Origin: Pseudomonas lalucatii
GTDB lineage: Bacteria; Pseudomonadota; Gammaproteobacteria; Pseudomonadales; Pseudomonadaceae
NCBI RefSeq assembly: GCF_018398425.1
Contig: NZ_JADPMV010000002.1
Span: 434,001-498,000 of the forward strand
DNA: 64,000 bases
Direction: 5' to 3'
The translations under genes were made by a program, and so were the position numbers. The notes below the pieces were generated by a model. The model saw nothing but the letters and a program-made list of their open reading frames with translations. It did not search any database and was not told the DNA's origin. The stretch's first letter is position 1, and each line of letters starts with the position of its first letter. Shown here one piece after another: positions 3,103 through 34,406 of this stretch.

Positions 3103-3798
3103 TTAGTCGTCGGTGGTATGCACTTTGCGGTGCAGGATCGCCTGGAACTCGTCGGCGAAGGTGTAGTAGCGACCGATCAGCATCTCGCCGCGGGCGGAGA
3201 ATCGGTTGTAGGCGATGACCGCCGGAATCGCCGCGAACAGGCCGATGGCCGTGGCGATCAGCGCCTCGGCGATGCCCGGGGCCACGGTGGCCAGGGTGGC
3301 CTGCTGCACCTGGGCCAGGCCGCGGAAGGAGTTCATGATGCCCCACACGGTACCGAACAGGCCGATGTAGGGACTGGTGGAGCCGACGGTGGCGAGGAAC
3401 GGCAGGCTCTGCTCGAGCTTTTCTTCTTCCCGCGAGATGGCCACGCGCATGGCCCGCGACACGCCGTCCATCACCGCATCCGGGTCGACGCCCTGCTGCT
3501 GGCGCAGGCGGGAGAACTCCTTGAAGCCGGCGCGGAAGATCTGCTCCAGGCCCGAGTCCGGGTCCGGGTTGCTGCCAGCCTGGCGATACAGCTTGGACAG
3601 GTCGATACCGGACCAGAAGCGCTCCTCGAACATGTCCAGGGCGTTCTTGGCCGCGCGCAACAGGGTGCTGCGCTGGAAAATCATGACCCATGAAGTGACC
3701 GAGGCGCCCACCAGGGTGAGCATCACCAGTTGCACCACCAGGCTGGCGTTGCTGATCAGACTCCACATCGACATGTGGTCAACGGCGTTGGCTTCCAC
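3103..3798 (-). CDS. tolQ: Tol-Pal proton-channel subunit TolQ
   Basis: MotA/TolQ/ExbB-family inner-membrane protein of 231 residues that forms the motor with TolR. Three hydrophobic segments are visible, at about 18-40, 135-158 and 170-195. The conserved TolQ/ExbB blocks are present (GTVWGIMNSFRGL and the Ala-rich PGIAEALIATAIGLFAAIPAVIAYN). It starts 2 bp after the ybgC stop on the minus strand, so the two genes are co-transcribed. Confidence 0.97.
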   Translation of the reverse strand: MEANAVDHMSMWSLISNASLVVQLVMLTLVGASVTSWVMIFQRSTLLRAAKNALDMFEERFWSGIDLSKLYRQAGSNPDPDSGLEQIFRAGFKEFSRLRQQQGVDPDAVMDGVSRAMRVAISREEEKLEQSLPFLATVGSTSPYIGLFGTVWGIMNSFRGLAQVQQATLATVAPGIAEALIATAIGLFAAIPAVIAYNRFSARGEMLIGRYYTFADEFQAILHRKVHTTDD

Positions 3799-25805: not shown

Positions 25806-26510
25806 TCACCAGCCCAGGGTTTCCTTCAGGAAGGGAATAGTCAGCTTGCGCTGGGCCTGCAGCGAGGCCTGATCGAGGCGCTCGAGCAGCTCGAACAGCG
25901 CACTCATGCTGCGCTCGCCACGGGTGAGGATGAAGCGGCCGACCTCGTCGCTCAGGTTCAGACCGCGACGCGAGGCACGCAGCTGCAGGGCGCGCAGCTT
26001 GTCCTCGTCGGACAGTTCATGCAGCTGGAAGACCAGGGCCAGGGTCAACCGCGACTGCAGGTCGGGGAGCGCGACCGGCAGCTCCCGCGGCGACCGGGCG
26101 GCGGCCAGCAGCAGGCGCCGGCCGCTGTCGCGCAGGCGGTTGAACAGGTGGAACAGGGCCTCCTCCCAGTCGCTGCGGCCGGCCACGGCATCCAGCTGGT
26201 CGAGGCACACCAGCTCGCACTGTTCGAGGTTGTCCAGCAGATCCGGGCCGTAGGCCACGACTTCCGCCAGCGGCAGGTAGACCGCCGGCTCACCGCGCTG
26301 CTCGAAACGCAGGCAGGCCGCCTGCAACAAGTGACTGCAGCCCACGCCGGCACCGCCCCACAGGTAGATCAGGCTCTCCGTCCAGCCTGCCTCGGCCTCG
26401 CACAGGCGCTCGACATAGCCCAGCGCGGCGGCGTTGGCCCCCGGATAGTAGTTGGCGAAGGTGGCGTCATCGCGAAGACGAACGCCTAATGGCAATTGAA
26501 TGGGCGTCAT
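25806..26510 (-). CDS. hda: DnaA regulatory inactivator Hda
   Basis: AAA+ DnaA paralogue of 234 residues. With the sliding clamp it stimulates ATP hydrolysis by DnaA and prevents re-initiation. The N-terminal clamp-binding peptide is M-T-P-I-Q-L-P-L-G-V. The Walker A region reads G-G-A-G-V-G-C-S-H-L-L-Q-A, with the Lys missing as in other pseudomonad/enterobacterial Hda. Sensor/Arg-finger region L-Q-S-R-L-T is present. The gene ancestrally followed perM with an ATGA overlap; a mobile element now separates them, beginning 56 bp before its start codon. Confidence 0.93.
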   Translation of the reverse strand: MTPIQLPLGVRLRDDATFANYYPGANAAALGYVERLCEAEAGWTESLIYLWGGAGVGCSHLLQAACLRFEQRGEPAVYLPLAEVVAYGPDLLDNLEQCELVCLDQLDAVAGRSDWEEALFHLFNRLRDSGRRLLLAAARSPRELPVALPDLQSRLTLALVFQLHELSDEDKLRALQLRASRRGLNLSDEVGRFILTRGERSMSALFELLERLDQASLQAQRKLTIPFLKETLGW

Positions 26511-26549: not shown

Positions 26550-26573
26550 CCGTAAAGAGCGGAAAGTTTATAG
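26550..26573. repeat. attL: left attachment site of the element
   Basis: CCGTA, 11 bp, then GTTTATAG. The same arrangement with identical spacing occurs at 33358-33381. On the minus strand the host side of this site still codes the lost PerM tail: from TAT-AAA-CTT it runs 20 codons (K-L-S-A-L-Y-G-E-S ...) to a TGA that overlaps the ATG of hda at 26510. Confidence 0.85.
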
Positions 26574-26677
26574 CCTTCTGCGCCCTAAGTCATTGATGGA
26601 TAACGCATGTCTTTGCTGGGCCTTCCTAGCCCTTGCCTGCCCGCCCTTGGGCTTTGAGGGCCATTGCCGGCCTGTGT

Positions 26678-26697
26678 TTTCGACACTTTTTCGACAC
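26678..26697 (+). repeat. Left integrase arm-type repeat pair
   Basis: Two copies of TTCGACAC spaced 11 bp apart (TTTCGACACTT + TTTCGACAC). The same 20-bp unit with one mismatch lies at 33282-33301, near the right end in the same orientation. One helical turn between copies suits two bound integrase N-terminal domains. Confidence 0.65.
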
Positions 26698-26706
26698 GCG
26701 TGCTAG

Positions 26707-26937
26707 ACAGCCGTAGCCCCTATCAGTAGCGTCTAGCCATCACGGTGTCGTATCCGTTTCACACCCGATCTTGTCTCAAGCCGTTTTCTGTCCTGCCTGT
26801 GTCCTGTTTACCGTTTGGACAGGTATGCACTTCAATAGCTTAGTGCATGGCAGGGAACGCTATCGGACACCTGGAAGGTTGTTATACGACAGCAGTATCA
26901 CCTAATTAATAGCTAGGCAAGTTCACAAAGGTTCGCA
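26707..26937 (+). other. Non-coding left end of element
   Basis: Together with 26574-26677 this region has no gene. It holds an inverted repeat A-T-G-C-A-C-T / A-G-T-G-C-A-T (26825-26831 and 26842-26848, 10-nt loop). From about 26870 the composition turns AT-rich ahead of the nuclease gene, which has AAAGG 7 nt before its ATG. The region also separates hda from perM, so any new hda promoter should lie in 26511-26700; I see no convincing one. Confidence 0.45.
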
Positions 26938-27636
26938 ATGAAAGCCTGGAAGAAATACCAAGAGGACGCAGCGGAATACTTCCGCACTTTAGGTCTAAAT
27001 GCATCCACAGACGTACCGGTAAAAGGTGTGAGAACCAGTCATGACGTGGACGTACTAGTAACATCACATTATGTAGGGTTCGACGTCACTTGGGTTGTAG
27101 AGTGTAAGTACTGGAAAACACCGGTAAACAAGCTGCACGTGCTCGCACTAAGAGAAATAGTTTCTGATGTAGGTGCTGACAGGGGAATCCTACTATCAGA
27201 GTCAGGCTTTCAAAGTGGCGCAATTGAAGCTGCAAATCTAACGAACATTCAAGTAACCTCACTTTCTGAAATCAACCAAAGTGCAGCTCCTAGCATTTAC
27301 GCAATGCGCCTTAGAGACCTATTCGACCGAACCGGCATCTGCAAGGAACGATATTGGGATATACCCAAAAGGGAGCGCATTGAATATGGCCTCAGGGCCG
27401 ATGTGGGTGAAATAGATTACTCCGGAGCGAGAGCAATTGATATGTGCATCGATCTGCTAACAAAAGCATTCAGAGGAATTTATCCATTTCAAAGTAATGA
27501 CATAGAAGTATTTCTGAAATTTGGAAAAGACAAATACTTTGAATCACCAGCTGAAGTCGTAGATCTAGTTCATCAAAAAATTTCAGAACTGGAAGCTAAG
27601 CTAGACACCTACGAATCCACAAGAAAGCATGCCTAA
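26938..27636 (+). CDS. Mrr-like restriction endonuclease-domain protein
   Basis: 232 residues. Residues about 8-105 form a PD-(D/E)xK nuclease fold of the Mrr_cat type: H-D-V-D-V-L-V gives the Asp, then V-V-E-C-K-Y-W gives the E-x-K, followed by the conserved G-A-D-R-G-I-L-L-S-E-S-G-F-Q-S-G-A-I-E-A-A. The remaining 120 residues are unrecognised and end in a helix. There is no methyltransferase nearby, which fits a modification-dependent (type IV) enzyme or an abortive nuclease; this is inference. Base composition and codon use are AT-rich, unlike the backbone, indicating recent transfer. Confidence 0.82.
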   Translation: MKAWKKYQEDAAEYFRTLGLNASTDVPVKGVRTSHDVDVLVTSHYVGFDVTWVVECKYWKTPVNKLHVLALREIVSDVGADRGILLSESGFQSGAIEAANLTNIQVTSLSEINQSAAPSIYAMRLRDLFDRTGICKERYWDIPKRERIEYGLRADVGEIDYSGARAIDMCIDLLTKAFRGIYPFQSNDIEVFLKFGKDKYFESPAEVVDLVHQKISELEAKLDTYESTRKHA

Positions 27637-27715
27637 CTCTCGTGAATAGAGATGGTGAGCCTTATCAGTTATTGGCAAGAACAAAAGCGTGACCAACTTA
27701 AATAATGGAGTGAAC

Positions 27716-27892
27716 ATGTCAAAATATCTGGTTGAACTTATTGGTAGCAGGCAGTCTGGCACAATGAGCAAAAGCTATACCGTTGACGCCGAAAGTGAAT
27801 CCAATGCTGAAAAATCCGCAATGGCAAAGCTGCGTTCGGATATTTTCTTTACGCAATACTCTTGGTCTGTAAAGCGAATCCAAAAGCGATAA
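27716..27892 (+). CDS. Small hypothetical protein in element cargo (58 aa)
   Basis: Begins MSKYLVELIGSRQSG, with GGAG 7 nt before the ATG at 27716; an in-frame GTG 27 nt upstream lacks such a site. Predicted beta-alpha-beta with S-Y-T-V-D-A-E-S-E-S-N-A-E-K-S-A-M-A-K-L, a pattern seen in small proteins that modify or sense phage components, but I recognise no family. It is followed 41 bp later by an attC-like repeat, so it looks like a gene-cassette ORF. AT-rich. Confidence 0.65.
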   Translation: MSKYLVELIGSRQSGTMSKSYTVDAESESNAEKSAMAKLRSDIFFTQYSWSVKRIQKR

Positions 27893-27933
27893 CAGCACTC
27901 TAAAAGAGCGCAATAGTTCAACTTGATTAGAGT

Positions 27934-28009
27934 ACCTAACAAACTGGTAAATCGTTCGCTTTGCTCACTGGGACGGGCCAAAGCCCGCCCCCTTAATCAA
28001 ACGTTGCCT
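27934..28009 (+). repeat. attC-like recombination site 1
   Basis: 76 bp beginning A-C-C-T-A-A-C and ending C-A-A-A-C-G-T-T-G-C-C-T, with an internal hairpin GGGACGGGC / GCCCGCCCC and loop CAAA (27970-27991, 8 of 9 pairs). Shares GCTCACTGG, AAAGCCCGC and CAAAC with the repeat at 28653-28737. The layout (outer TAAC/GTT core boxes, imperfect inner arms, short loop) is that of integron attC sites. The right core is G-T-T-G-C-C-T rather than GTTRRRY. Confidence 0.6.
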
Positions 28010-28030
28010 AGTTCGACCTAAGGTATCTAT

Positions 28031-28654
28031 ATGCCCACTATCCGACTTGAAGAGCGAAGCGATGATGGCACGATTCTGGATACCTTAAGCGGCGAGGTCT
28101 CCGACTCCGACTGGAAAATACTTACCAAATTCTTATCTCACCTTGACCGCGCTACGGAATGCAGCCTTATTCGCCGAGGAATCCCTAAAATATCCGGCAT
28201 AAAATGGGAAGCAGGTGAAATGAAATTTAACGCCGAAAGCTATTCCAACGCCGAACTGTACGAACTATTACATGTGCTACGACCATTGATCCTCCATAAC
28301 GAGCCCGCTTCTTTCGGAGCCGTTCGCGCCACCCTGGGTAGATGCTTTAAAAATAAACGCTTCTCAAACCACCTGAAAGAACTGCAACATATATTCGACC
28401 ATGGACAATTAGCAGCCTTCATGCAGGTATCCATCGGAGAACAGCCACTATTTGATAGTTCTTTACTTCGTATATGGCTGAACGGCACTCAGTACCATAC
28501 TGAAGAAGAAAAAGCCGCTGCATGGAGCGAAATAGAAGCTGACCTTACGACCGAAAACGCACGAGCAATTGTCATCAACCAGTTAAAAGACAAAGTATTT
28601 GCACTACTGCTTTTAGGACACATAGCAAGAACCATCACAAACGAAAGTGTGTGA
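28031..28654 (+). CDS. Hypothetical protein encoded between two attC-like repeats
   Basis: 207 residues, soluble, no recognised domain. The N-terminal stretch (M-P-T-I-R-L-E-E-R-S-D-D-G-T-I-L) looks like a beta hairpin; the rest is helical, with R-C-F-K-N-K-R-F-S-N-H-L-K-E-L in the middle. Starts 22 bp after the right core of repeat 1, and its stop lies at the left edge of repeat 2. This is the tight one-ORF packing of an integron gene cassette. AT-rich relative to the backbone. Confidence 0.7.
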   Translation: MPTIRLEERSDDGTILDTLSGEVSDSDWKILTKFLSHLDRATECSLIRRGIPKISGIKWEAGEMKFNAESYSNAELYELLHVLRPLILHNEPASFGAVRATLGRCFKNKRFSNHLKELQHIFDHGQLAAFMQVSIGEQPLFDSSLLRIWLNGTQYHTEEEKAAAWSEIEADLTTENARAIVINQLKDKVFALLLLGHIARTITNESV

Positions 28655-28737
28655 GCAACCGTAGCAGCTGGCACTCAAATCGCTCGTCACGCTCACTGGA
28701 ACGCGCTAAAGCCCGCTCCTTTACCAAACCGTTAGAA
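28653..28737 (+). repeat. attC-like recombination site 2
   Basis: Ends C-C-A-A-A-C-C-G-T-T-A-G-A-A. The internal hairpin is GGAACGCGC / GCCCGCTCC with loop TAAA (28698-28719, 7 of 9 pairs). Compared with repeat 1, the third stem pair is A-T instead of G-C, a compensatory change that suggests the fold is selected. The left outer core is degenerate (G-A-G-C-A-A-C). Confidence 0.58.
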
Positions 28738-28747
28738 TAGCTACCAC

Positions 28748-29308
28748 CTAGTCTCTATAATTCAAGCCAATACTTGCTCTACAGTTTCTGCGCTCGATGC
28801 TGCCTTCTTTGTGCGGCCAGCAGGCACGGTCCTTCATGCTCGGCGTTTGCTTGATGACGGTGACCTTCATTTTTGCAGCTGGCTTTGGCTGTTCAACTGG
28901 GCTAGGTGGCTCGGTGAAGCTAACTACGTTGTTAGCGCCGCGCGGGATGTAGTTGTTATCGTTGAATACGGTTTGCTTGGGTGGGGCGTTCGCCACTTCG
29001 GCTTGGCCGGGAGCTGGGCTGGCTTGAGCTTGCTGGTCGCGCCTTGCCTGTTCTTCGACAATTCTGTCCCAGTCCTTGCTTGCTACTGGTTCTGGCCGAG
29101 TAATCTCGGCGACCGGGGCTGGCCTGGAATGGGTGTTCTTGTTGGCCAGGTTCTGCACTGTGCCTTTCAGGAAAGCCGAGCCTGCTGCGTGGAGCATGGC
29201 CAGCGTGACGCATGTGCCGATGATTCCTGGGATGAACCATGCCACGGCATTACGTCTGCGGGGATTTGTTCGTATGTAGTCGGGGGCGTCGTTCCAATCA
29301 GCCTTCAC
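28748..29308 (-). CDS. Single-pass membrane protein of unknown function, element-encoded
   Basis: 186 residues from a GTG at 29308, justified by GGGAGAGGGAA immediately upstream. One transmembrane helix at about 24-46 (W-F-I-P-G-I-I-G-T-C-V-T-L-A-M-L). Next is a Pro/Ala/Gln-rich extended region (50-145), then a compact C-terminal end with three Cys/Trp-type residues (D-R-A-C-W-P-H-K-E-G-S-I-E-R-R-N-C-R). It follows the repressor gene on the same strand, 57 bp apart, and so is probably expressed in the prophage state. A superinfection-exclusion or defence role is conceivable but unsupported. Confidence 0.75.
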   Translation of the reverse strand: MKADWNDAPDYIRTNPRRRNAVAWFIPGIIGTCVTLAMLHAAGSAFLKGTVQNLANKNTHSRPAPVAEITRPEPVASKDWDRIVEEQARRDQQAQASPAPGQAEVANAPPKQTVFNDNNYIPRGANNVVSFTEPPSPVEQPKPAAKMKVTVIKQTPSMKDRACWPHKEGSIERRNCRASIGLNYRD

Positions 29309-29365
29309 TTTCCCTCTCCCTTGTCCCTCGGGCGTACCAGCGCCTAGTCACTTCCGTTGTGATTG

Positions 29366-29638
29366 CTATCCCGCGTGTTGACTGGTCAAGTTTCGGTTGG
29401 CTTCGTCGTATTCGGGGCTGGTCTGGCCTTTATCCGGCATAACCTCACCAGTCATCAGCCACCAGCGATAGCCCGGGTACAGCGTCCCGAGCTGCTCAAT
29501 TTCTTCCGCACTAATCCTCGCCTTGCCTCGCTTAATACTTTGCCACCTCACGTATTCCTTGCTGTTTACCTCAGCAAGGTCTTTGAGGCTCGTCGTCTCA
29601 AGCAATTCAAGGGCTCTATCAAGCATTCGGGTGCTCAT
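29366..29638 (-). CDS. Phage-type helix-turn-helix repressor
   Basis: 90 residues from ATG 29638; an in-frame TTG 12 nt upstream is an alternative. Pattern L-K-D-L-A-E-V-N-S-K-E-Y-V-R-W-Q-S-I-K-R-G-K-A-R-I-S-A-E-E-I-E-Q-L (split here: L-K-D-L-A-E then R-W-Q-S-I-K-R-G) is a lambda-repressor-like HTH, and Y-P-G-Y-R-W-W-L-M-T-G-E is a phrase I associate with phage XRE regulators. Divergent from the excisionase-like gene, with three identical-type palindromes in between. Probably holds the element in the integrated state. Confidence 0.8.
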   Translation of the reverse strand: MSTRMLDRALELLETTSLKDLAEVNSKEYVRWQSIKRGKARISAEEIEQLGTLYPGYRWWLMTGEVMPDKGQTSPEYDEANRNLTSQHAG

Positions 29639-29653
29639 TGTCAAAGACAATCG

Positions 29654-29713
29654 TATGGACTATTGCCATATCTGCAGAGTTTATGGATGATTTCCATATG
29701 GACATATTCCATA
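29654..29713. promoter_or_regulatory. Three-site operator between repressor and early genes
   Basis: Three 17-bp palindromes of the form TATGG-N7-CCATA at 29654-29670, 29682-29698 and 29697-29713. The spacers differ (ACTATTG, ATGATTT, ACATATT) while both arms are identical in all three. Sites 2 and 3 overlap by 2 bp, so their centres are 15 bp apart; site 1 is 28 bp from site 2. This is the expected switch region for the divergent repressor at 29366-29638 and the early operon beginning at 29754. Confidence 0.85.
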
Positions 29714-29753
29714 TTACTAGCCCAACAAAGACCAACATAGTGCAGGAAAGCCC

Positions 29754-29978
29754 ATGGACTTGGAAGAAAGCAACCTCACTCCGAAAGGCCTGCTCCCGAC
29801 CCCGCCGGTTCTGCCCTGGCGCGAGTTCGCGGATTGGATTCGCATGGCCGACGACCACAACACCGTATGGGGCTGGATTCGTAACGGCTACATCCCCTCA
29901 CACAAGGTAGGTAAGCACGTCATGGTCAACGTGGCACTGCTGACCCAGCAACTTTTGGAAAAGGAGTGGTTGGCATGA
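29754..29978 (+). CDS. Small excisionase-like DNA-binding protein
   Basis: 74 residues. W-R-E-F-A-D-W-I-R-M-A-D-D-H-N-T-V-W-G-W-I-R-N-G-Y-I-P-S-H-K-V-G (key residues W, W-G-W-I, G-Y-I-P, K-V-G) is a winged HTH of the excisionase/MerR-like type. AGGAA is 6 nt before the ATG. First gene of the rightward early operon and controlled by the three palindromes. In Pf phages the excisionase lies in the same place next to the repressor, which is the main support for the role. Confidence 0.75.
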   Translation: MDLEESNLTPKGLLPTPPVLPWREFADWIRMADDHNTVWGWIRNGYIPSHKVGKHVMVNVALLTQQLLEKEWLA

Positions 29979-30190
29979 GCAAAGCCGATGAGAGCCTGGA
30001 CCTCTGTAGCGTCATCACCTTCGCCGAAATGAGCGGCATATCGGTCGAGGAGGCGATTGGCTGGGTGGACAACGGAACGATCCCCAGCCTGAAGCTGGCT
30101 GACTTCCGCATGGTCAACCTGGCTCGCCTGCGTGAAGACCTGCTCAAGGGCAAGACCGCCTTCAAAGAGGGGGACTACAGCCATGTCTAG
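29975..30190 (+). CDS. Second small HTH DNA-binding protein of early operon
   Basis: 71 residues from ATG 29975, overlapping the previous stop by 4 bp (ATGA), with GGAG 9 nt upstream. D-L-C-S-V-I-T-F-A-E-M-S-G-I-S-V-E-E-A-I-G-W-V-D-N-G-T-I-P-S-L-K (key residues: G-I-S-V-E, G-W-V, G-T-I-P) again fits the excisionase-like HTH fold, so the operon holds two related small regulators. Possibly a Pf-type early protein; I cannot tell which of the two acts as Xis. Confidence 0.72.
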   Translation: MSKADESLDLCSVITFAEMSGISVEEAIGWVDNGTIPSLKLADFRMVNLARLREDLLKGKTAFKEGDYSHV

Positions 30191-30572
30191 CCAATGTGTT
30201 GCCCTGGATGCAGCCACCGCTCTTGGCTACATCGGTCAAGCCGTCCTTGTGGAGTTGGTGTGGGACGATGACCCGGAAGCCATCTGGCGTTTCAAGCACA
30301 TCGTTGGCGTGGTGTTGCCCGTCGAAGGTGTTTACGAGGATGGCTATTTCCTGACTGTTCCCTTCAACGACAGCACCGATTTTCCGACCGAAATTTTCTT
30401 CAACACCATCCGAACCATTCGGGCGATGCGGTACCGCGACCGGCACGGTTCCGGCAACGTACTGGGCCGTATCGCCCGTCCTAACCAGGCTGGGTCAAGG
30501 GCCGCGCTCCCGGCTCGTCGGAACAGCTCCATCGTTCCGGCGAACGGAAGCACGGGCGCAGCGCACCCTTGA
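30183..30572 (+). CDS. Hypothetical early protein of the element
   Basis: 129 residues from ATG 30183, overlapping the previous gene by 8 bp. The first ~95 residues look like a compact soluble domain ([42 protein letters not shown]). The tail after G-N-V-L-G-R is low-complexity and overlaps a large inverted repeat, so the ancestral gene probably ended earlier and reads on into non-coding DNA. No recognised function; reminiscent of a conserved small Pf-phage gene after the excisionase. Confidence 0.65.
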
Positions 30573-30700
30573 CGCACCACGGCCATGAACAGCCTATCCG
30601 TGGGAGCAAGGGGCAGCTTTTCCGCCCCGCGCTCCCGAGCCCTCGGCGGCAAGAGCGGGATGACAAGGGCAGAGCCCTTGGTGTGCTTCGCCTCTGCCCA
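30494..30700. other. Hairpin cluster in element non-coding region
   Basis: At least four inverted repeats. GTCAAGGG 30494-30501 pairs with CCCTTGAC 30566-30573, enclosing CGGAAC/GTTCCG (30519-30524, 30534-30539). GGGAGC-AA-GGGGC pairs with GCCCC-GC-GCTCCC (30602-30636, two symmetric stem blocks around a 9-nt loop). GGGCAGAG 30667-30674 pairs with CTCTGCCC 30692-30699. Filamentous phages carry their origins and packaging signal as such hairpins; assignment of any single one is inference. Confidence 0.6.
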
Positions 30701-31027
30701 GCACCCGCGCCAAGCCCCTGTCTCCCTCGCTGATCGCCCCCGCCTGCTGCACCTTCCGGCCCTGCCGGATGCTCGCCCAGTCCTGCTCGGACTTCTTTTG
30801 CTGCTGATTCTCGCCGCGCCCTGGAGTAGCGGGGTAGTCGCCGTGCCGCCGGGCAATCAGCAGTCAGCCATCGGGATAGATGAAAGCGTCAGCTGCGGGC
30901 GCGGCGGCACAGGTGTGCGCGAGGCACGAGCGCGCAGGTGCGCCGCCCGCCAGCTGACGTCCCTGTAACACGTCAGATAAATACCAAATGAACAGGCCAG
31001 TACTGGTCAATGTTGGAGAACTGAAAA
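30574..31027 (+). other. Gene-less region upstream of the replication initiator
   Basis: About 450 bp of GC-rich DNA. A 127-codon open frame at 30585-30968 has no ribosome site and runs through the hairpins, so I do not call it. Just before the rep gene a 10-bp palindrome CCAGTACTGG (30997-31006) lies 9 nt ahead of the GGAGA ribosome site and could be an operator for rep. Confidence 0.5.
30887..30959. other. Large imperfect palindrome, candidate replication origin or nick site
   Basis: Outer arms CGTCAGCTG (30887-30895) and CAGCTGACG (30951-30959) are perfect. The complementary GC arms continue inward with single-base bulges (GGGCGCGGCGGCAC against GTGCGCCGCCC), and an inner stem G-C-G-C-G region closes a 9-nt loop at 30922-30930. 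Placed 69 bp before the replication initiator, as expected for a double-strand origin of a rolling-circle replicon. Confidence 0.6.
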
Positions 31028-32305
31028 ATGAAAGCAAAGGATCAGATTCGGTTAAACGTCGATGGCTTCGAAAGCCCAACCGGCCGCCTGTTCGTTGAGC
31101 GGGGCAACGCCAAGATCACCGACCTGTCGAAAGTCCGCCTGCTGCGTTGCGGCGTCGACACGGTGCGTCAGCTGTACCGGGGCATGATCCGCCCGGAAGT
31201 CATGGCGCTGTTCGAAACGCCAGGAGTCATGGTCGACTTTGCCGACCAGCGCTGGCACTCCGGTCGTGTCGGCCGTGACTCGGGCTACCAGTACAAACTG
31301 CAGAACGCCGACCTGGGCATCATCCTCTTGGTGAAGAACTTCAACGCCAAGCTCGACAACATCGGCCCGCACCTGAAAATCGAGGTGTCGCCCCACGCCA
31401 TCGACGCCCTGTCGCCGGAGCGTCTGCAAGAGCACCTGGACCACTACGCCGACGCCGTGTTGAGCCACCTGGAAATCAACCAGTGCGCGGTTCATCTGGC
31501 GTTGGACCTGCAAGGCTGGACGCCGCCCGCCGATCTGGTCGCCCGCATGCATTGCAAGGCCCGCACGCACCGCGATATTTCGGGCATCAGTGAGGTCAGC
31601 TGGGCCACCAAGTCGAGCGTCTACGGCCGCGGGGAAACGTCCATGTTCGGTTCGGCCGGTGGCGTGCAGCTGGCCATCTACAACAAGACCGAACAGGCCC
31701 GCGCCACCGACAAGCTCGACTACTGGGAAAGCGTCTGGAAGCGGCGCGACAGCTTCGACGCAGACGACCCCAACAACTACGACCCGGAGCAAGACGTGTG
31801 GCGGGTGGAGCTGCGCTATCACCACTCGATCATCCAGCAGTTCGCCAGCGGCTCCATTGATGTGCGGACGGGTGAGGCCATCGACACTCGCTCGTTTGCC
31901 GCCTTCTCGGGCCACTTGGACGGTTTGTGGCGCTATGGCCTGGGGCAGTTCAAGTTGCTGGCTCGCCCTGGTCATTTCGAGGCGATCTGGACCCTGATTC
32001 GCGATGACGTGCGGGTCGATCTGCCGGTGGACTCCCTGCTCGATCAGACCGAGTACAAGCGCTACTACAAGACGTCGCGGGGCTTCTCGGGCAAGAACGT
32101 GGAGCTGTTCCTGGGAAACTTCGTAAGCCTACTGGCAAGGGAGCGGGTGGGCGCAAAAAAGGCGTTCTCCACCCTAAAACAATGGGACTGTTGGCCCGTT
32201 ATACGGGATCACTACGCGGCCAAGGAAAAGACTGAACGGGACATTTACCGGCACATCAAAGACCTGCTCGAGGAACGACAGGTGAGGTGGGGGCGTGCGG
32301 TCTGA
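31028..32305 (+). CDS. Replication initiation protein of Pf/RstA type
   Basis: 425 residues, GGAGA 8 nt before the ATG. Central block V-W-R-V-E-L-R-Y-H-H-S-I-I-Q-Q-F and the upstream Y-N-K-T-E-Q are the pattern I know from phage replication initiators (Rep_trans/RstA-like) that nick and start rolling-circle replication; C-terminal half includes Y-K-R-Y-Y-K-T-S-R-G. Size and position directly before the integrase match the Pf-phage initiator gene. The integrase ATG shares its A with this stop codon, so rep and int are translated together. Confidence 0.8.
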   Translation: MKAKDQIRLNVDGFESPTGRLFVERGNAKITDLSKVRLLRCGVDTVRQLYRGMIRPEVMALFETPGVMVDFADQRWHSGRVGRDSGYQYKLQNADLGIILLVKNFNAKLDNIGPHLKIEVSPHAIDALSPERLQEHLDHYADAVLSHLEINQCAVHLALDLQGWTPPADLVARMHCKARTHRDISGISEVSWATKSSVYGRGETSMFGSAGGVQLAIYNKTEQARATDKLDYWESVWKRRDSFDADDPNNYDPEQDVWRVELRYHHSIIQQFASGSIDVRTGEAIDTRSFAAFSGHLDGLWRYGLGQFKLLARPGHFEAIWTLIRDDVRVDLPVDSLLDQTEYKRYYKTSRGFSGKNVELFLGNFVSLLARERVGAKKAFSTLKQWDCWPVIRDHYAAKEKTERDIYRHIKDLLEERQVRWGRAV

Positions 32306-33363
32306 TGGCGATTGAGCAGCTACCAGACGGCCGCTGGCGGGTCGATGTAGAGCCCATCAAGGGCAAGCGCTTCCGCAAGACCGTGAAGACCAAGGCCGAG
32401 GCCCAACGCTTCGAAGCCACCAAGCGCGCCGCGATGATCCAGCCGACCAACTGGAACCCCAAGCCAAAGGATCGCCGCAAGCTCTCCGAACTGGTCCAGC
32501 GCTGGTACGATCTGCATGGGCATTCGATCACCAGTGGCAGGCGTCGCACGAACACCCTTCTGCTTATGTGTCAGCGCCTGGGCGATCCGCTCGGGACCAA
32601 GCTGACTGGGGCCCACCTCGTCGAGCTGCGCCGGCGGGAGCTAGAGGCCGGGGCCGTCCCCAAGTCGATCAACAACCGTTTCACCTATCTCAAAGCCGTG
32701 TTCAACGAGCTGCACCGCCTGGGTGACATCGACTACCCGAACCCACTCGCCAAGGTAAAGCCACTCAAGTTCCAGGAACGGCAGCTGTCGTACCTGACGG
32801 CAAAGCAGATTCCCCAGCTGCTCGACGCCCTGGATAGCAGCCGCTCCAGCTGTGTGCGCCTGGTTGCTGAGGTGTGTTTGGCGACGGGGGCCAGGTGGTC
32901 GGAGGCTCAGGGGCTGACCCGCGATCTGATCCGCCATCAGACCGTGACCTTCACCAACACCAAATCGAAGCGCCTGCGGGTCATTCCGATTAGCCAGGCA
33001 TTGGAGCAGCGACTTACGGCCTATCTGGACGATCACGGACGCTTCACCGATTGCAGCCGGGCCTTTCGTATTGCCGTCGCACACTCGGGCATCGCCCTGC
33101 CGCGAGGCCAGTGTTCGCATGTGCTGCGCCACACCTTCGCGTCTCACTTCATGATGAGTGGCGGGAATATCCTCACGCTAAAGGAGATTCTCGGCCACGC
33201 CTCGCTGACCATGACGATGCGCTATGCGCACCTGTCGCCTTCCCATCTGCGCGATGCGCTGAAGCTCAACCCGCTGGACGGTTTCGACACTTCTTCGACA
33301 CCTGCGACCAAGCCGAAAAAGAAAAACCTTAAAAATCAATCAGGTGGTGCCACGAAACCGTAG
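32305..33363 (+). CDS. int: Tyrosine recombinase, Pf-type phage integrase
   Basis: 352 residues from ATG 32305 (M-A-I-E-Q-L-P-D-G-R-W-R-V-D), which matches the N-terminal arm-binding domain of Pf integrases as I remember it; an in-frame start 18 nt upstream is less likely. Core-binding domain is about 60-160. Catalytic residues are visible: Arg in T-G-A-R-W-S-E-A, H-x-L-R in H-V-L-R-H-T-F-A-S-H, His in L-G-H-A-S-L-T, Tyr in M-R-Y-A-H-L. The 3' end runs into attR and its stop lies between attR's CCGTA and core, 28 bp beyond the convergent perM stop. Confidence 0.93.
   Translation: MAIEQLPDGRWRVDVEPIKGKRFRKTVKTKAEAQRFEATKRAAMIQPTNWNPKPKDRRKLSELVQRWYDLHGHSITSGRRRTNTLLLMCQRLGDPLGTKLTGAHLVELRRRELEAGAVPKSINNRFTYLKAVFNELHRLGDIDYPNPLAKVKPLKFQERQLSYLTAKQIPQLLDALDSSRSSCVRLVAEVCLATGARWSEAQGLTRDLIRHQTVTFTNTKSKRLRVIPISQALEQRLTAYLDDHGRFTDCSRAFRIAVAHSGIALPRGQCSHVLRHTFASHFMMSGGNILTLKEILGHASLTMTMRYAHLSPSHLRDALKLNPLDGFDTSSTPATKPKKKNLKNQSGGATKP
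33282..33301 (+). repeat. Right integrase arm-type repeat pair
   Basis: TTTCGACACTT + CTTCGACAC, 19 of 20 identical to 26678-26697 and in the same orientation. Lies within the integrase 3' end (codes F-D-T-S-S-T), 73-92 bp inside the right core, while the left copy is 105-124 bp inside the left core. Confidence 0.65.
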
Positions 33364-34406
33364 GTGTCTGATTGTTTATAGAAATCATGGGCATGACGCA
33401 GCAAAACCATTATCACCGCGGCCACCGGCAGGGCCAGCAGCACGCCGCTGAAGCCGAACAGCTGGCCGCCGGCCATGATCGCGAAGATCACCGCCACCGG
33501 GTGCAGGCCGATGCGGTCGCCCACCAGCCAGGGTGTCAGCAGCATGCCTTCGAGCAACTGGCCGACGGTGAATACCGCGGCGATGGCCAGCAGCGGGTAA
33601 GGTTCGACGCCGAACTGGAACAGGCCCGCCGCCAGCGCCGCAGCGATCCCGACCACTACCCCCAGGTAGGGCACGATGCTGGCCAGCCCCGCCAGCAGGC
33701 CGATCAGCAGACCCAGCTCCAGGCCCACCAGCATCAAGCCGGCGGCATAGAGCAGGCCCAGCGCCAGCATCACCAGCAGTTGGCCGCGCAGGAAGGCGCC
33801 GAGCACCTCATGACACTCGCCGAACAGCTTCACCACCAGCCCCTCGCGACTGCGCGGCAGCAGTCCGCGCAGCCTGGCGAGCATCAGGTCCCAATCGCGC
33901 AACAGGTAGAAGGTGACCACGGGGATCAGCAGCAGGTTGGCCAGCCAGGCCACCAGCGCCAGGCCCGAGGCAGTGGCCTGCGACAACACCAGGCCGAGGA
34001 TGTCGGTGGTCTTGCCCAGATGCCCGGACAACGCAGCCTTGAGCTGGTCGAAGCGCCAGAAGCCGTCGCCCAGGCCCAGCTGCGCCTGGACCCAGGGCAG
34101 GGCCTGGTGCTGCGCCCAGTCGAGCATCTGCGGGGTCAGCTCATAGAGGCGCAGCAACTGTTTGCCGAGCATCGGCACCAGCACCAGCAGCATCAGCGCG
34201 AAGATCAGGCCGAACAGCACGAACACCAGGATCACCCCCCAGGTGCGCGACAGCTTCCAGCGCTCCAGGCGGTCGACCATGGGATCGCCCAGGTAGGCCA
34301 ACAGCACCCCGATCAGGAAGGGCGTGAGAATCGGGTGCAACAGATAGAGCAACCAGCCGAGCAGCAACAGCCCAGCCATCCATAGCCAGCGACGTGAATC
34401 GATCAT
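33336..34406 (-). CDS. perM: AI-2E/PerM-family transporter with element-supplied C-terminus
   Basis: 356-residue inner-membrane permease, seven to eight helices: two close to the N-terminus (L-W-M-A-G-L-L-L-L-G-W-L-L-Y and I-L-T-P-F-L-I-G-V-L-L-A-Y-L), a long soluble loop, then helices from about 150 to 340. The family exports small molecules or ions; the specific substrate is unknown. The last 12 residues (after Y-K) come from the integrated element. The native tail, 20 codons from the Lys and ending in an ATGA overlap with hda, is still readable at 26507-26573. Confidence 0.92.
   Translation of the reverse strand: MIDSRRWLWMAGLLLLGWLLYLLHPILTPFLIGVLLAYLGDPMVDRLERWKLSRTWGVILVFVLFGLIFALMLLVLVPMLGKQLLRLYELTPQMLDWAQHQALPWVQAQLGLGDGFWRFDQLKAALSGHLGKTTDILGLVLSQATASGLALVAWLANLLLIPVVTFYLLRDWDLMLARLRGLLPRSREGLVVKLFGECHEVLGAFLRGQLLVMLALGLLYAAGLMLVGLELGLLIGLLAGLASIVPYLGVVVGIAAALAAGLFQFGVEPYPLLAIAAVFTVGQLLEGMLLTPWLVGDRIGLHPVAVIFAIMAGGQLFGFSGVLLALPVAAVIMVLLRHAHDFYKQSDTYGFVAPPD
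33358..33381. repeat. attR: right attachment site of the element
   Basis: CCGTA, 11 bp, GTTTATAG, identical in form and spacing to 26550-26573. The element side of the core supplies the present PerM tail (Y-K then Q-S-D-T-Y-G-F-V-A-P-P-D), which mimics the native start of the tail L-S-A-L-Y-G. Confidence 0.85.

Follow-up and report, generated by a model that had tools for sequence, protein, structure and literature searches.

A coat-less Pf-type element in Pseudomonas lalucatii belongs to a recurrent family of probable filamentous-phage satellites

A Pf-type replicon without coat genes

We analyzed a 64,000-nucleotide stretch of the genome of Pseudomonas lalucatii (contig NZ_JADPMV010000002.1, positions 434,001 to 498,000), which we call the window. 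The window contains a 6,808-bp element (26566–33373) that is flanked by 8-bp GTTTATAG cores. It carries the Rep, Int and regulator set of Pf-type filamentous phages (Primolicivirus type), and the Pf coat and Zot genes were not found in it. An original prediction had read this locus as a candidate satellite of a filamentous phage, that is, as an element packaged by a helper. The main features are as follows (L and G numbers are our labels for loci and genomes):

25806-26510, minus strand: hda, left flank (Pfam Hda_lid, 5e-29)
26566..26573, no strand: attL core, GTTTATAG; the empty site in two relatives (L226, L228) has one GTTTATA
26678..26697, plus strand: TTTCGACACTTTTTCGACAC repeat, candidate Int arm site (left), 95% identical to the right-hand copy
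28748..29308, minus strand: 186-aa protein (phrog_7381), with relatives in satellites and full Pf prophages
29366..29650, minus strand: Pf repressor (PHROGs, phrog_147, 1.3e-25)
29754..29978, plus strand: Xis-like small helix-turn-helix (HTH) protein 1, or Xis (PHROGs, phrog_1864)
29966..30190, plus strand: Xis-like small HTH protein 2, or Xis2 (PHROGs, phrog_2951)
30183..30572, plus strand: P129, 129 aa, the signature protein of the coat-less family
30493..30684, plus strand: block A, structured DNA common to Pf1 and phage 62-2, overlapping the 3' end of the P129 gene
30885..30953, plus strand: G+C-rich hairpin, candidate packaging signal, directly 5' of the origin-like site
30954..30976, plus strand: origin-like inverted repeat CTGACGT-N9-ACGTCAG, with a core conserved in satellites and full Pf phages
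31028..32305, plus strand: Pf-type rolling-circle Rep of the PA0727 family (phrog_1159, 3.3e-204)
32287..33363, plus strand: tyrosine recombinase Int (phrog_1; PF00589/Phage_integrase, 3.5e-23)
33282..33301, plus strand: TTTCGACACTTCTTCGACAC repeat, candidate Int arm site (right), inside the 3' end of int
33374..33381, no strand: attR core, GTTTATAG, at the 3' end of an AI-2E/perM-like gene
33336-34406, minus strand: AI-2E transporter gene, right flank (Pfam, 2.6e-56), presumably perM

The open reading frame (ORF) coordinates and PHROGs bear out the predicted gene order: repressor, Xis, Xis2, P129, a non-coding stretch (30573–31027), Rep and Int. Residues ~8–84 of P129 are predicted to form a small beta-barrel. 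Int keeps the residues R...HxxR...H...Y, which we take to be catalytic. By tblastn, Rep belongs to the Pf1/PA0727 family and is closest to that of phage 62-2 (OR621022; 77%). Rep also keeps the motif IYNK at 217–220, and the tyrosine matching Y218 is essential in the Rep of Pf4 (PMC4863604; here and below, PMC numbers stand for the parts of each source that were available to us). Because these motifs are kept, neither protein looks inactive by sequence.

Among the 10 ORFs scanned in the element, Pfam and PHROGs gave no match to coat, Zot/pI or secretin families. Similarly, coat, Zot, secretin and single-stranded DNA (ssDNA)-binding queries from three phages had no tblastn match in the element (E 1e-3). 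So, the coat and assembly module is missing, as predicted, and neither of the findings that had been named as fatal to the prediction (coat or Zot homologs among these ORFs, or a Rep or Int that is inactive by sequence) turned up. The prediction did err in one respect: it held that non-coding DNA stands in place of the coat module, and what lies there is conserved Pf DNA.

The borders rest on comparison with relatives. With a 331-bp query taken from the hda side, 13 of 19 relatives gave a match, and homology on this side stops at or before 26577 in the 11 relatives compared (at 26572 in L226 and L228). On the perM side, homology begins between 33357 and 33376 across 11 relatives compared, and the start that we give for the border is 33374. 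L226 and L228 have the empty site, in which a 7-bp overlap joins the two flanks. Given this flank homology and the single GTTTATA, we place the element at 26566–33373, which upholds the predicted borders (26566..33381). The AI-2E reading frame continues past the attR core and ends within the element; the original end of this gene was therefore replaced on integration. The 20-bp TTTCGACAC-rich repeat inside both ends is likely an Int arm site; the sequence around the left copy (26659–26696) matches Pf1 at 108–145 (87%). The G+C content is 45% at the cargo end, 56% in the early genes, 61% in Rep-Int, and 67% in the flanks.

P129 marks a family of coat-less loci

To place the element, we searched 398 genomes of the genus, of which 35 had a match to Rep. 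The resulting 53 neighborhoods, together with the window's own locus (L004) and a second locus from the same genome (L003), gave 55 Rep loci, which we classified by tblastn: 32 were full Pf, 17 were coat-less with the plan of the element, and 6 were other. L077 and L079 were counted as full Pf, with a Zot that is divergent or weakly matched. Rep is broken, partial or distant in L054 and L084–L088, which have no P129 and no coat matches. The 17 coat-less loci, from 14 genomes, share the plan repressor, Xis, Xis2, P129 (1–2 copies), ~390–540 bp, Rep, Int. Within this set, a repressor match was not found in L057 and L060, and Rep is broken in L083. P129 was confined to the 17 coat-less loci and was found in none of the 32 full Pf loci.

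We then scanned species-representative genomes with an alignment of P129 and obtained 44 loci. L144, an ordinary Pf that matches only the block A part, was left out. In almost all of the other loci (41/43), Rep or a part of it lies no more than 1.2 kb away, and 40 have Int as well, with a median gap between P129 and Rep of 464 bp. There were no coat-gene matches inside these 43 loci. Members are from Pseudomonas and Stutzerimonas, except for two differently labelled contigs from metagenome-assembled genomes (L117 and L142). Some members have a broken Rep (e.g., L083/L119, L127, and L141).

P129 relatives are also present in viral contigs. We found 144 and kept the best 80: in L145–L155, P129 extends beyond block A, and the other 69 match residues 105–129 (i.e., block A) only. 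L155 has a P129-bearing fragment (49–683), with no nearby Rep, to the left of a full Pf1-like phage (3106–10811). This is the only sign that we saw of the P129 family beside a P. aeruginosa-type Pf.

Purifying selection on Rep is the same in satellites as in phages: the median pairwise dN/dS (the ratio of nonsynonymous to synonymous substitution rates) is 0.158 across 50 satellites vs. 0.147 across 39 full phages. For the first 86 codons of P129, the median dN/dS is 0.34 (148 usable pairs of 153).

There are also close copies. In genome G138, one satellite occurs twice, once in tRNA-Gly(CCC) and once at a secondary TCGAACCC site, and these copies (L036 and L037) have 2 mismatches in 5,704 bp. 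Similarly, L101 from Stutzerimonas kunmingensis BUN14 and L102 from S. chloritidismutans AW-1 have 2 mismatches in 7,621 bp, and no alignment of their flanks was reported at E 1e-20. L102 has a second tandem copy that is identical over the 5,175 bp compared. That nearly the same sequence recurs at different sites and in different species shows that the element's relatives have recently moved horizontally. In viral contigs, the satellite adjoins a full Pf prophage (L148, L150, L151, and L154) or another satellite (L147, L152, and L153). A tRNA gene (Gly, Thr, Ser, Met, or SeC) lies at the right border of nine loci, and terminal repeats of 19–51 bp give satellite sizes of ~5.7–8.3 kb among the matches listed.

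The P129-marked coat-less loci are a stable lineage that is distinct from deletion remnants, and the element in the window is an intact-looking member of this natural, recurrent and probably helper-packaged satellite family. Both the conserved coat-less family and the signs of recent movement in relatives support the original reading of the locus as a satellite.

Conserved DNA and cargo

Block A of the element is 89.6% identical to that of Pf1 and 84.5% identical to that of phage 62-2. An alignment of 41 sequences (26 coat-less and 15 full) predicts one long hairpin and several shorter ones, with compensatory changes in 10 of the 51 predicted pairs. Block A is present in all 17 coat-less loci from the genus search. 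At the search sensitivity used, ten full phages retain just ~30–40 nt of it, and no match was reported in others, including the Pf-like prophage at L003. In Pf1, its counterpart (3441–3632) lies inside the annotated gene PA0719, and in phage 62-2 it is intergenic. Rfam gave no match in the window at gathering thresholds.

Of 91 distinct Rep loci, 88 have the origin core, GACGtCCCTGTA[AG]CACGTC, upstream of Rep as an exact pattern. The palindrome with this core is likely the nick site.

The hairpin just before the origin occurs in several types. Across 39 full phages, hairpin distance correlates with Zot distance once Rep is corrected for (partial Mantel 0.44, p = 0.0005). Every one of the 38 hairpin pairs with at least 0.80 identity shares a Zot lineage, which is true of 282 of 741 pairs in total (these are not independent of one another). 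Between lineages, the median identity is 0.57 and no pair exceeds 0.66. Because the hairpin sits between zot and rep, some correlation is expected anyway. This tracking fits a packaging signal that is read by the morphogenesis proteins. Also, a Pf4 derivative that lacks PA0717–PA0726 can still be transferred (PMC10837833), which suggests that the Pf4 signal is outside those genes and agrees with the hairpin's place.

The cargo lies between the left end and the 186-aa gene:

26938..27636, plus strand: 232-aa Mrr-like restriction endonuclease (PF04471, Mrr_cat, 1.3e-10; weak PADLOC match to PDC-S02, 4.4e-6)
27689..27892, plus strand: 67-aa ORF ahead of attC-like site 1, with no family in Pfam, PHROGs or PADLOC
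27933..28006, plus strand: integron attC-like site 1 (match of 5e-17 to a profile partly built from this site)
28031..28654, plus strand: 207-aa ORF of no known family, cassette-like, between the two attC-like sites
28669..28735, plus strand: integron attC-like site 2, with a degenerate 5' part (match of 2e-13 to a profile partly built from this site)

The cargo that had been predicted is present, with the amendment that part of it is bounded by integron attC-like sites. Site 1 has matches elsewhere in the same genome, at C1:2377390 (85%), C2:614460 (85%), and C2:645287 (84%), and this genome encodes an integron integrase at C2:610531-611616 (TIGR02249; 467.9 bits with in-frame neighbors).

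Using a profile of 14 sites, we searched 109 fetched stretches for attC-like sites (E up to 0.01; the profile derives partly from the matched loci). Besides L152, 11 distinct coat-less loci had such sites, with some matches weak and not all borders known: the window, L038, L051=L122, L059=L126, L072=L130, L106, L117, L124, L129, L140, and L142 (where "=" joins loci judged to be from one genome). Stretches with full prophages have them too: 11 in L062, 4 in L046, and 1 weak match each in L039 and L050. The rows in L062 (462–5111) and L046 (2839–4843) are to the left of full Pf-like prophages, at the position that holds accessory genes in Pf phages, and may lie on either side of the prophage borders.

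With two attC-like sites close together and no integron integrase, the element may resemble the phage-type elements with CALINs (clusters of attC sites lacking an integron integrase) described in PMC9892861, though the second profile match is degenerate and the profile was built partly from these same sites. The available text of that paper names no filamentous carrier: "inovir" and "satellite" are absent, and "filamentous" appears three times, once in the references.

We also ran PADLOC on ten cargo proteins from eight other satellites (L108 gave two); because these were picked among the longer cargo ORFs, they are no survey. There were matches to AriAB/PARIS (L107), to PtuA and PtuB of Septu (L108), to AbiC (L124), to a TIR protein of PDC-S66 (L130), and to PDC-S31 (L038). 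Weaker matches were ApeA-like (L104) and PDC-M28C (L114), and those of L101 and L127 were marginal.

Helper phages and alternative explanations

The original prediction called for a search of the genome for a helper Pf prophage, and this search found a Pf-like prophage. The genome (4.58 Mb in 2 contigs) has a second Rep, 88% identical, in a full Pf-like prophage (L003) with genes for Int, secretin (phrog_1012), Zot (phrog_1675, PF05707) and gVI. Its CoaA-like, CoaB-like and ssDNA-binding-type genes were assigned from where they lie and from tblastn similarity to other phages, because PHROGs and Pfam gave no named match. This resident prophage has the same origin core as the element. Its secretin (L003 7560–8921; phrog_1012, 6.4e-110) has counterparts in other prophages of the genus (L040, L041, L049, L050, L070, L076, and L078), and no gene is so named in the Pf1 record. 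Beside its int gene (L003 4579–5175), a HigB-like toxin gene (PF05015, 5.8e-16) is paired with an HTH_3 gene; the location of this toxin-antitoxin pair is reminiscent of PfiT/PfiA in Pf4. In another genome, G323, three equal-scoring Zot genes lie exactly 6,258 bp apart (C1:2220974-2234026), a spacing suggestive of another filamentous phage present as a tandem array.

More broadly, a full Pf-like prophage is present in 11 of the 14 satellite genomes, including this one, vs. 15 of the 384 others (26/398 overall; Fisher p = 2.9e-12). In the Rep tree, satellite Reps interleave with full-phage Reps. Co-resident pairs of satellite and full-phage Reps are more alike than shuffled pairs (p = 2.5e-4, 10 genomes), with one pair ranked 30 of 32. 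Exchange of Rep and hairpin modules between phages and a single P129 backbone would explain both the interleaving and the matching.

The element shares its repressor, Xis, Rep, Int, gene order, origin palindrome and block A with Pf phages (Pf1, Pf4, and 62-2). Unlike them, it has P129 and it carries cargo without a virion module: gV, CoaB, CoaA, gVI and Zot were not found. To our knowledge, few satellites of filamentous phages have been described; RS1, TLCphi and pDolos are those that we can name. Like the family here, RS1 has replication and regulation genes without coat genes and forms arrays with its helper; it integrates via the host's XerC/D and encodes the antirepressor RstC. In contrast to RS1, the element has its own Int with intact motifs and an GTTTATAG core, and is not of the XerC/D type. 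The family also differs from RS1 in its tRNA or short-core sites, P129, defense cargo, and phage group. RS1, from Vibrio cholerae, is likewise a satellite of a filamentous phage, CTXphi, and promotes expression of both itself and its helper (PMC11389934). pDolos (Schmid et al. 2024), from Shewanella, is cited in PMC13230959 and PMC11389934 as a plasmid that is the satellite of an inovirus. By description, it depends on an inovirus, as the element would, but it is an autonomous plasmid instead of an integrated, Pf-derived element.

Another parallel is engineered. Pf4 lacking PA0717–PA0726 transmits its marker in the presence of functional Pf4; pilA was needed in that donor, and PCR on pooled products gave the deletion form as well as recombinants (PMC10837833). 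Like the satellites, this derivative has no structural genes, keeps the genes outside the deleted block, and moves with help from Pf4. Unlike them, it is a laboratory construct with no natural lineage, and P129 is not expected there. Our literature searches found no natural Pf satellite. A survey of Pf prophages in P. aeruginosa kept 182 and set two aside as severely incomplete, and its available text does not contain the word "satellite" (PMC7549136).

Overall, we estimate a probability of roughly 80% that the element is an integrated satellite of Pf-type filamentous phages that is packaged by a helper. The anatomy and borders of the element, its family, selection, the movement of relatives, the conserved cis-DNA and the co-occurrence with full Pf are shown here; excision of the window copy, its packaging, the identity of the helper, and what P129, block A and the hairpin do are inferred. 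Int and the Xis-like protein would cut the satellite out at GTTTATAG: the att and empty sites are seen, and excision of this copy is presumed. In Pf4, XisF4 drives excision and activates PA0727 (PMC7379572). By analogy with PA0727, the satellite's own Rep would nick the origin-like palindrome before rep and drive rolling-circle replication. Because the satellite has no recognized gene for ssDNA binding, coat or export, a co-resident or superinfecting full Pf phage would coat and export its single strand, and the helper probably recognizes the hairpin beside the origin. The satellite would then enter new cells in the helper's particle and integrate in a tRNA or other site. It may pay its way with antiphage cargo (here, the Mrr-like nuclease and the integron-cassette-like gene). 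P129 would provide a satellite-specific function, and we guess that it might be a small barrel, binding nucleic acid or protein, by which replication or the helper is tuned.

Several observations weigh against this account. Host ancestry is a confounder of both the co-occurrence and the Rep matching. A search of 50,697 phage records gave no P129. The hairpin distance of full phages also follows Rep distance after correction for Zot (0.34, p = 0.0005), so part of the hairpin-Zot signal may be linkage. The element's hairpin best matches that of L066, from the 62-2 lineage, with an identity of 0.73 (the maximum of best-of-39 values in 200 shuffles is 0.67). Its identity to the hairpin of the resident prophage is just 0.56, which is the mean of shuffles and hence background. 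The resident prophage also lacks full-length block A. As this prophage has the only Zot-family match in the genome and its hairpin does not match, the usual helper of the window copy may be another phage.

Some of the evidence bears on a different explanation, that the element is an autonomous integrative rolling-circle replicon of Pf origin that has given up phage particles and relies for its spread on conjugation, natural transformation or other phages. It does have its own Rep and Int. Also, the three remaining satellite genomes have no Rep-linked full Pf and no match to PF05707 (which did match in 5/5 control genomes with full Pf), so satellites can sit without a helper. Yet the Pf origin is kept, satellites adjoin a full Pf in four viral contigs and share a genome with one in most cases, and the engineered equivalent moved with help from Pf4. 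Also, among 48 satellite hairpins, 25 have an identity of at least 0.70 to a full-phage hairpin. That it is only 25 weighs against the helper account in turn; some hairpin types are shared, and others are unrepresented among the phages compared. We consider an autonomous replicon to be unlikely.

An intracellular parasite of Pf, which uses repressor immunity, a decoy origin and defense cargo and is not usefully packaged, would account for the Pf-type repressor, the defense genes, and a hairpin unlike the resident prophage's, but it is hard to reconcile with the recent horizontal movement of near-identical copies, and we think it quite improbable. Least probable of all is a Pf prophage in decay, with its coat module deleted by chance: the gene order is that of Pf minus one block and some members have a broken Rep, but the same P129-marked plan recurs at 43 loci with Rep under selection, and P129 was found in none of the 32 full Pf loci from the genus search.

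If the element is a helper-packaged satellite, we would tentatively go further, with more doubt than confidence: P129 satellites might parasitize many Pf lineages by swapping Rep and packaging hairpins, and might act as an ssDNA shuttle of integron cassettes and antiphage systems between Pseudomonas species. Satellites of filamentous phages would become a general phenomenon, with a ready laboratory model in the well-studied Pf phages. The family would also provide a pointer to the Pf packaging signal, and would reveal a lysis-free route by which defense genes and integron cassettes move across species.

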